Shown piece after piece: positions 15,871-18,354 of a stretch of 64,000 bases of DNA. The stretch comes from Ferroplasma sp. (GTDB lineage: Archaea; Thermoplasmatota; Thermoplasmata; Thermoplasmatales; Thermoplasmataceae), in the NCBI RefSeq assembly GCF_031200575.1, contig NZ_CP133597.1, forward strand, positions 682,001 through 746,000. Direction: 5' to 3'. The position numbers and the translations under genes were made by a program. Below the pieces are notes generated by a model. That model saw only the letters and a list, made by a program, of their open reading frames with translations. It searched no databases and had not been told where the DNA came from. The stretch's first letter is position 1, and the number at the start of each line of letters is the position of its first letter.

Positions 15871-15906
15871 TAACGAAGAAAAAAGGACAGTCACTTATGT
15901 CCCCTA

Positions 15907-16020
15907 TCAATTCCGCCTAATCCGGCCAATTAACTGTTTAAACTCATCCCTGTTTCTCTGTTGCTTAAATACTGCAAGGTCAAAAAAGAGGTATTCTTCC
16001 CTTCTCTTTCTATGTACCAT
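15907..16020 (-). CDS. Possible 37-aa basic protein downstream of the Snf7-like gene
   Basis: A short ORF starting ATG at 16020, 14 nt after the stop of the coiled-coil (Snf7/CdvB-like) gene on the same strand. The product begins MVHRKRREEYLFFDLAVFKQ and ends in a basic amphipathic-looking tail (QLIGRIRRN). The amino acid composition (Arg/Lys-rich with an aromatic LFFDLAVF core) looks protein-like rather than random AT-rich sequence. No Shine-Dalgarno is visible. Its place as last gene of the ESCRT-like cluster is the main reason to list it. Existence is unproven. Confidence 0.35.
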   Translation of the reverse strand: MVHRKRREEYLFFDLAVFKQQRNRDEFKQLIGRIRRN

Positions 16021-16033
16021 AATAATCTAAAAC

Positions 16034-16654
16034 TCATTTCTGAGACTCACTTTCTGTGTTTCTTTTTTCCAGTTCCTTGTCTATTTCATCCACCTTCTGA
16101 TCCTCTGTTTTTGGCCTTGATGCAGTTCTTTTCAGGAAATTCGTAAGAAGCTGATCCTCTGAAATTGGTGATTCTGCACCTTCGTTGAATCCAAGGTTTT
16201 CATTTATTTGTTCCACCTGATCATTGATGGAGTTCAGGTTGCTGTCTGCTATATCCTTTATGCTTGTCAGGGATTTCATATAGGTGGCCTGCTGGTCAGG
16301 TGTAATTTTCAGTGCCTGGAATATAACCTCACTGTTTGCTATAAGATCCATTGCCTTGCCAGCATCATTGAACATATCAAGCTGGGATGAAATAGAATCC
16401 AGAAGTATGTTGGTTCTGTCAAAATATGTGATAAATGATCTCACATCATTAATCTGCTTTGAGAGTCCATGTTCTATATCTGCATAGTTTCTCTCCTCTG
16501 CAGCCTTCCTGCTTTCTTCCAGGGACTGTGCCCTTTTGAGAAGCGCCCTTATGGCCCTCTTTAGGTTCATCTGTAAATCCTTAATTTTTACTTTAGTCTC
16601 CTCAAGCTGCTCCTCCTTTGTGAGCTGGTGCTTTTTTTTAGGCAAAATGGACAT
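16034..16654 (-). CDS. Coiled-coil protein, probable Snf7/ESCRT-III (CdvB-like) homologue
   Basis: 206-aa, helix-rich, charged protein without Cys or membrane segments. The layout resembles ESCRT-III/CdvB: a basic N-terminal helical hairpin (LKRAIRALLKRAQSLEESRK about 31-50, RSFITYFDRTNILLDSISSQ about 72-91), a middle with regular hydrophobic spacing (MDLIANSEVIFQALKI), then an acidic linker and C-terminal helix DEIDKELEKR that could serve as a MIT-interacting motif. The call depends heavily on the neighbouring MIT-AAA ATPase; a generic coiled-coil protein is the alternative. ATG 16654 is chosen because upstream in-frame residues are not protein-like. Confidence 0.6.
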   Translation of the reverse strand: MSILPKKKHQLTKEEQLEETKVKIKDLQMNLKRAIRALLKRAQSLEESRKAAEERNYADIEHGLSKQINDVRSFITYFDRTNILLDSISSQLDMFNDAGKAMDLIANSEVIFQALKITPDQQATYMKSLTSIKDIADSNLNSINDQVEQINENLGFNEGAESPISEDQLLTNFLKRTASRPKTEDQKVDEIDKELEKRNTESESQK

Positions 16655-16811
16655 AATATTTATAGTATTTACCCTGTAATAAACATTTCGGTGTGAAACC
16701 AGGCAGCAATTATACAGGGTACTCTTCAAACCTCAGGTTTTATTGCCCCGGGAATAAAATTTTTATAACCATGGAATATTAGGATTTATCGTCATTCTGG
16801 ATAACCAGGTT

Positions 16812-17909
16812 TCAGTTGCTCAAAATGTAATCCTGATATTTCTTTAGAAGCCCTATGTCTATTGATGGTTTTATCTGGGATATGACCTCAAGTAGATCCT
16901 CTGTTGTAACATCTGCCCTGTTCCCTGTTTTTATTACCTCCATAAACACATTCTGAACGGCCTTCTTGCAGATAAATTCAATGTCTGCACCAGAATACCT
17001 TTCTGTTCTGGCTGCGAGCCCATCGTAATCGATTTCACCAAGATGCTTGATTTCAGATAGTTTTAGCTGGAACAATTTTTTTCGGGATTCATAATCAGGG
17101 GGTGGAACGTATATCTTGACATCAAACCTTCCAGGCCTCATTATGGCCTCATCTATTCCCCACGGGTTGTTCGTGGCAGCTATTATGAAGATGTTCCTGT
17201 CTTTCTGGGATGTGAGCCCACCCACCTCAGTCAGAAGCTGCGATACGCCCCTCCTGGCAGCATCAGATTCTGACCCTGATCTTTTCGGCACCAGTGTATC
17301 AATCTCATCGAAGAAAAGTATTGATGGGGAGAGCAGGTAAGCTGCATGGAAAAGCAGGGAAATATTCTTCTCAAACTGGCCGAACCACTGGCTATACAAT
17401 GTGGATGGGTTTACATTTATAAAATTAGCCTTTACCTCATTGGCTATGGCCTTGACAATAAACGTTTTTCCTGTTCCCGGGGGCCCGTAGAGTAGCATCC
17501 CACCACTGAATTCTATATTATATTCCTGTGAAAGCTCTTTGTATCTCATCGGATATATTATTTTTGACATTATCTCGTTCTTTACGTTTTCCAGTCCGGC
17601 AACGTCCTGAAAAGTAACCCTGGGTATTTCGGGTGCTTCTATATTTAACTGCTCAAGTATTTTTTTCCCCTCCCCGATTCTATCCTTTTCTACGTATTTG
17701 CCTCCTATGGATTCATAGATCTTCTTCAGGCTTTCTGCCTGGTGCAATCTTTTTTCCCTGATTTTTCCGGAGGAATGTGCAGCAATTTCCATTACCTCTT
17801 TATAAGCATCTCTGTATAATTTTGCAGCCTCCTCCCTGTTTCCGGAAGATTCCATATCCATGGCCTTCTTAATTAAGGAACTTGCATGGTCAATTCTGTT
17901 TTCAGTCAT
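16812..17909 (-). CDS. cdvC: MIT-domain AAA ATPase, Vps4/CdvC-like
   Basis: 365-aa AAA ATPase of the Vps4/CdvC type, expected to remodel or disassemble ESCRT-III polymers. Residues 1-70 form a three-helix MIT-like domain (AMDMESSGNREEAAKLYRDA). The AAA core has Walker A GPPGTGKT (142-149), a pore-loop SQWFGQ with the Trp-x-Gly pattern of Vps4, Walker B ILFFDEID (197-204), arginines RRG (219-221) and MRPGRFD (257-263), and sensor-2 SGADIEF. The ATG at 17909 overlaps the preceding stop by 8 nt (ATGACTGA), typical of translational coupling; an upstream ATG at 17930 is possible. The likely substrate is the Snf7-like protein encoded 157 nt downstream. Confidence 0.85.
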   Translation of the reverse strand: MTENRIDHASSLIKKAMDMESSGNREEAAKLYRDAYKEVMEIAAHSSGKIREKRLHQAESLKKIYESIGGKYVEKDRIGEGKKILEQLNIEAPEIPRVTFQDVAGLENVKNEIMSKIIYPMRYKELSQEYNIEFSGGMLLYGPPGTGKTFIVKAIANEVKANFINVNPSTLYSQWFGQFEKNISLLFHAAYLLSPSILFFDEIDTLVPKRSGSESDAARRGVSQLLTEVGGLTSQKDRNIFIIAATNNPWGIDEAIMRPGRFDVKIYVPPPDYESRKKLFQLKLSEIKHLGEIDYDGLAARTERYSGADIEFICKKAVQNVFMEVIKTGNRADVTTEDLLEVISQIKPSIDIGLLKKYQDYILSN

Positions 17910-18354
17910 AATACTGCTCCGTATCATCAAAATTTACAGACGTCTCGCTGTAAAGTTTAATATGCTTCCACCCACATGATATATTTTCAAAATTCATTTT
18001 AATTATGTAATCATTGGGGAAAATCGCATAGGACGTGAGTTTTATTGCAAATTGTTTTGGAAAGAAGAGGTAATCATGATCCTCACCGGCCTGCCCACTG
18101 TAGAATATCATTTTTACGCGGTTTCCGATAATCTGGCTGTAATTTTTTGCGCCAGTTCTTATCTGTGGGTTGAGTGATTCGTTTTCATCTATGAATTTCT
18201 TGATCTGCTCAACTTCTCCATTTAAAACGCACCCAACCTTTACCGGATACATCTCCAGAACCTTTTTTGGAACATTGATGTAAACCTTCGATGCAATATC
18301 ATTCTCAACTTCATGGTCTGATAAACGTATCAACGTCCTGACATTAAGGCTCAT
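17902..18354 (-). CDS. Unrecognised beta-rich protein, first gene of the Vps4-like cluster
   Basis: 150-aa soluble protein that I cannot assign. Sequence alternates short hydrophobic strands (SKVYINVPKKVLEMYPVKVG, NRVKMIFYSGQ, YLFFPKQFAIKL, DYIIKMNFENISCGWKHIKL) with charged turns, suggesting an all-beta or alpha/beta barrel. The end DDTEQYYD is acidic. It overlaps the Vps4-like ATPase by 8 nt and so is very likely co-expressed and stoichiometric with it. In crenarchaea the comparable cluster carries CdvA, which has a PRC-barrel; no homology to CdvA can be claimed by eye. An adaptor or membrane-targeting role is inference only. Confidence 0.65.
   Translation of the reverse strand: MSLNVRTLIRLSDHEVENDIASKVYINVPKKVLEMYPVKVGCVLNGEVEQIKKFIDENESLNPQIRTGAKNYSQIIGNRVKMIFYSGQAGEDHDYLFFPKQFAIKLTSYAIFPNDYIIKMNFENISCGWKHIKLYSETSVNFDDTEQYYD

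Follow-up and report, generated by a model that had tools for sequence, protein, structure and literature searches.

The closest described counterpart of this locus is the minimal ESCRT system of Thermoplasmata, which comprises Vps4, ESCRT-III and the arCOG07400 beta-barrel protein (Makarova et al., 2024; PMC10936438). The accessible part of that paper names Ferroplasma as lacking FtsZ, SepF and PRC, suggests cell division as the role of the minimal ESCRT, and notes that FtsZ-positive relatives keep the system (PMC10936438). In this study, we analyzed a 64,000-nucleotide stretch (the window) from a Ferroplasma sp. genome that consists of one contig of 1.86 Mb, is 99% complete and is closely related to Ferroplasma acidarmanus (L003). 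As far as the accessible text allows the comparison, the window holds two of these genes, Vps4 and ESCRT-III, and a probable counterpart of the third, in the same taxa and with the same absence of FtsZ, SepF and PRC, and the locus is a real ESCRT-III/Vps4 module whose core is already published (PMC10936438). That part of the text makes no mention of a 37-aa gene, of the hyper-divergence of Ferroplasma ESCRT-III or of a MIM1-like tail; as far as the literature shows, the microprotein encoded by that gene goes beyond it, and so do the rewritten ESCRT-III of Ferroplasma, the MIM1-like tails and the occurrence pattern of BB2, a paralog of the window's 150-aa protein (BB).

The crenarchaeal Cdv system (CdvA-CdvB-CdvC) resembles the locus in that the gene for its MIT-AAA ATPase, of CdvC type, accompanies one for a filament protein of CdvB type. 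However, the window's genome is without CdvA, the 206-aa filament protein has no room for a winged-helix region, and the crenarchaeal tail is a proline-rich MIM2 whereas that of the Thermoplasmata relatives is MIM1-like. The eukaryotic and Asgard ESCRT-III (CHMP3/Vps24) and Vps4 belong to the same protein families as well, but no ESCRT-I or ESCRT-II type genes were seen beside the window cluster, and a single ESCRT-III copy was detected in the genome.

The genes lie on the minus strand in the order BB (150 aa, 17902..18354), MIT-AAA ATPase (365 aa, 16812..17909, with its ATG at 17909), ESCRT-III (206 aa, 16034..16654) and a 37-aa ORF (15907..16020) located 13 nt past the ESCRT-III stop. The stop of BB overlaps the start of Vps4 by 8 nt (17902..17909), which suggests translational coupling of the two genes. 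This gene order, strand and overlap agree with those of an earlier sequence-only reading of the DNA. A stem-loop followed by a T-run (15882..15905, minus strand) may mark a transcript end past the microprotein gene, as judged by a pattern scan that found four such patterns in the region against 2.4 expected. In F. acidarmanus, two ORFs on the opposite strand separate Vps4 from ESCRT-III (L003:6865-7765), which suggests that ESCRT-III has its own promoter.

Pfam annotation of the ATPase returned AAA (4e-40), AAA_lid_3 (1.5e-8) and MIT (1.2e-5). The MIT score of 25.8 bits falls short of the Pfam cut-off, 30, which the gene's close relatives in G042 and G043 exceed. The N-terminal MIT domain (residues 6-53, 17751..17894) is joined to just one AAA domain, in which we located Walker A GPPGTGKT (residues 142-149, 17463..17486), Walker B ILFFDE and an aromatic W-F-G pore loop (residues 175-177, 17379..17387), all on the minus strand. 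By these sequence features we assign the protein to the Vps4/CdvC type. The NCBIfam CdvC model aligned to it over its full length (3e-64), but at 217 bits it did not reach the equivalog cut-off of 650, so that the ATPase is best described as Vps4/CdvC-like and not as the crenarchaeal equivalog. Its sole other matches in its own genome were both AAA domains of one Cdc48/VAT protein. In some relatives a second MIT-AAA ATPase gene of ~420 aa lies a few kb from the ESCRT cluster (L002:1083-2342, L041:5514-6782, L149:467-1747); the window's genome yielded no such gene. In addition, the Vps4 gene of G096, a half-complete assembly, is split into two ORFs (L053:5485-6510), by either a real frameshift or a sequencing error.

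The 206-aa protein, which the sequence-only reading had taken to be Snf7/CdvB-like, required profile methods. Single-sequence searches linked it weakly (4e-5) to proteins of another genus whose genes occupy the corresponding position, and a Thermoplasmata profile built free of Ferroplasma ranked it best of all window ORFs (1.1e-10), with 35.5 bits against a maximum of 6.9 bits in 500 shuffles and an alignment that was near gap-free over 163 columns. Snf7 was matched by 14 of the 19 relatives in the ESCRT-III family, and the family profile searched against PDB found human CHMP3 (3.6e-6, the best match) and Sulfolobus CdvB (3.5e-4). The AF2 model (pLDDT 76.5) is multi-helical, with predicted helices at residues 13-54, 58-107, 109-114, 119-154, 166-179 and 190-204, and shows the long alpha1-alpha2 hairpin and shorter helices of ESCRT-III in their usual order. 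CdvB, CHMP1B/IST1, CdvB2 and CHMP2A-CHMP3 occupied the top Foldseek ranks for this model with a probability of ~1.0, but with E values of only 0.015-0.1 and TM-scores of ~0.4, modest figures of the kind that flexible hairpins are expected to give. Were the protein instead a non-ESCRT coiled coil substituted for ESCRT-III at the locus, the lack of a Pfam Snf7 match for the protein alone and its merely 14-21% identity to relatives outside Ferroplasma would be explained; yet such a protein would hardly be recovered by the leave-clade-out profile with so gapless an alignment, be modeled as a multi-helix fold best matched by CdvB and CHMP proteins, and sit at the gene position of the relatives' ESCRT-III, and we regard this alternative as very improbable. 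Profile and model evidence together identify the 206-aa protein as ESCRT-III of the Snf7/CdvB family, in keeping with the earlier proposal. In genomes of genera g9 and g5 the ESCRT-III gene has an additional, shorter paralog (L149:11153-11731, L154:7499-8077) whose product ends in a MIM1-type tail, which in L149 reads EDKLKERLRKL. No relatives of ESCRT-III or of BB were found in viral contigs.

The cluster has diverged very unevenly. Compared with non-Ferroplasma relatives that lack FtsZ, the window showed identities of 71-74% for Vps4, 31-41% for BB and 19-21% for ESCRT-III; an outlier on a doubtful contig (G065) gave 62, 36 and 14%, respectively. When those FtsZ-less relatives are compared with one another, ESCRT-III identity reaches 74% between genera, and against genus g15 it is ~50%. 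The branch preceding Ferroplasma ESCRT-III measured 2.3 substitutions per site in the tree, against 0.25 for Vps4. Ferroplasma ESCRT-III may have been either rewritten in place or replaced by a distant copy, and the conserved position and near gap-free alignment favor rewriting.

Most Thermoplasmata ESCRT-III proteins end in a short acidic-amphipathic helix with the pattern [DE]xxLxxLLxxL, which resembles MIM1, the motif used by eukaryotic ESCRT-III to bind the MIT domain of Vps4. The pattern, which was chosen post hoc, was matched by 17 of 27 family members, where shuffling predicts 0.25, and several of the tails that miss it are off by one residue or in spacing. The C-terminal helix of the window protein (residues 190-204, 16043..16087, minus strand) carries a degenerate tail in which the MIM1-like motif is incomplete and the pattern is unmatched. 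The Ferroplasma tail is thus a poor MIM1, and binding of the MIT domain by ESCRT-III is not certain there. The putative MIM1-like tails of Thermoplasmata bear on the argument of Frohn et al. (2022; PMC8970359), who could see no interaction motif among the Cdv proteins of euryarchaea and judged a Cdv-like system unlikely, an argument that also counts against the reading proposed below.

BB had been considered an unrecognised protein standing in the place of CdvA, and neither claim was borne out. It is probably the Thermoplasmata-specific arCOG07400 beta-barrel component, which it fits by description, neighborhood and taxa in the accessible text of PMC10936438, and no evidence was found that it replaces CdvA. 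BB had no match in Pfam or PDB, and an AlphaFold model from five sequences reached a pLDDT of 35. The idea, formed by eye, that it is a two-fold cradle-loop or VAT-N-like barrel was discarded, as it failed an internal-repeat test and a profile comparison in which the hhalign score to the double-psi barrel of the Cdc48/VAT N-domain was equalled or exceeded by 37 of 200 shuffled controls. Homologs of BB were present in 24 of the 117 genomes of the order. A Vps4 gene adjoins BB in all 23 well-matched genomes and also in the more divergent G073, and ESCRT-III genes were found nearby; the linkage to the ATPase that the earlier reading expected in related genomes is conserved. BB is not a strict marker of FtsZ loss, as several genera possess both. 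The gene order differs in two divergent relatives (L054:1-350, L055:4806-5162), where ESCRT-III comes ahead of BB and Vps4 and a ~118-aa protein that looks by eye like a PH/GRAM-type domain follows Vps4.

Divergent second copies, BB2, are homologous to BB (E ~1e-13 in a single profile comparison). The copy of the window's genome lies outside the window (G000:C1:516934-517323; L169:5926-6327), directly behind a gene that is XPD/Rad3 helicase-like by sequence. Within the genus the BB2 profile matched 10 of 10 genomes; in g2 it matched two of three, and in g13 two of two (the latter weakly, at 45-49 bits). BB2 is thereby present in 14 of 15 family members that lack FtsZ; in the family's FtsZ-positive genomes none was found, the sole profile matches being cross-matches to BB. 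Since the BB2-bearing genomes are related, this pattern may reflect one event. The idea that BB2 is indispensable without FtsZ was weakened by G043, where it has been cleanly lost from the syntenic region. G065 (L041) has a Ferroplasma-like BB2, but its ESCRT cluster belongs to another type and lacks the microprotein, a combination that 5% contamination may explain.

The 37-aa ORF had been listed as an unrecognised cluster member, and this part of the reading was upheld. Between the window and three related genomes, pN was 0.17-0.36 and pS 0.64-1.07 in its frame, whereas pN/pS was ~0.9 or higher in the two other frames. In this frame alone, replacement changes are held back although synonymous change approaches saturation, the signature of a genuine protein-coding gene on which purifying selection acts strongly. 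Homologs with the core motif, roughly LFFDLxxFKxxxNxxEFKxxxxxIK, were recovered by an iterated profile in nine more genomes, which belong to two genera (G060, G061, G063, G064, G066, G067, G068, G042 and G043), and begin 13-69 nt past the stop of ESCRT-III; a homolog in G062 is interrupted by an assembly gap, and G041 has a weak match immediately at the stop of ESCRT-III. So short an ORF with no family match in Pfam could also be read as chance or as a conserved RNA element at the 3' side, but neither would account for the frame-specific constraint or for protein-level homologs in another genus, which makes such an origin very unlikely. Every genome with a homolog of the 37-aa gene is without FtsZ, and none was found past ESCRT-III in the FtsZ-positive genera or in G065.

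FtsZ (PF00091), SepF (PF04472) and CdvA (PF18822) were undetected in the whole, complete genome of the window, in line with the earlier statement that no CdvA is visible at the locus; a genome search for ftsZ had been proposed together with it. Across the order, FtsZ is present in 101 of 117 genomes and absent from all of g1, g2 and g13, and SepF is absent from the same genomes. FtsZ- and SepF-positive relatives, for example genus g15, keep the same ESCRT cluster, and division is accordingly not its only possible role. The g13 genomes have no FtsZ and no detectable ESCRT-III but one BB2-like protein, a pattern that appears to fit the statement on Picrophilus in the accessible text of PMC10936438.

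Taken together, the locus probably encodes a minimal Thermoplasmata ESCRT membrane-remodelling machine whose main job here would be cell division. The sequence shows the families to which the ATPase and ESCRT-III belong, their linkage, the selection on the microprotein and the absence of the FtsZ system; binding, filament formation, division and the roles of BB and the microprotein are inferred. ESCRT-III subunits would assemble into a filament that lines the inside of the membrane where it narrows to a neck. Their tails would be bound by the MIT domain of a Vps4-type hexamer, and pulling of the subunits through the hexamer's central pore would constrict and recycle the filament. For BB, whose translation overlaps that of Vps4, a role as adaptor or regulator of the ATPase is probable; the microprotein, encoded just past ESCRT-III, probably acts as a small regulator bound to the filament. 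The sequence-only reading had called the cluster a membrane-remodelling or division module. Remodelling follows from family membership; division remains inferential, as FtsZ-positive relatives keep the cluster. The coexistence of the same cluster with FtsZ and SepF in other genera, together with the g13 genomes that still divide with neither FtsZ nor ESCRT-III, would also suit an ESCRT that serves chiefly in membrane repair or for extracellular vesicles, in cells dividing by another mechanism. We consider this use less likely than division: in a complete genome with no FtsZ, SepF or CdvA, ESCRT is the sole known division candidate. Division is hence the likeliest use of the cluster in this genome, a judgement that rests on the absence of alternatives.

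A more specific history can be offered only tentatively. In the lineage that lost FtsZ, ESCRT might have become the main division machine and acquired BB2 and the microprotein. Joint change of BB and the filament protein in Ferroplasma, beside an ATPase that stayed fixed, might then have given rise to a new way for Vps4 to recognize the filament. The conserved Vps4 beside a rewritten ESCRT-III constitutes a natural experiment on substrate recognition by this ATPase, and the conserved 37-aa gene tied to ESCRT-III provides a concrete new component to tag or remove. Furthermore, the minimal ESCRT of these wall-less acidophiles bears on how archaea without FtsZ and CdvA divide.
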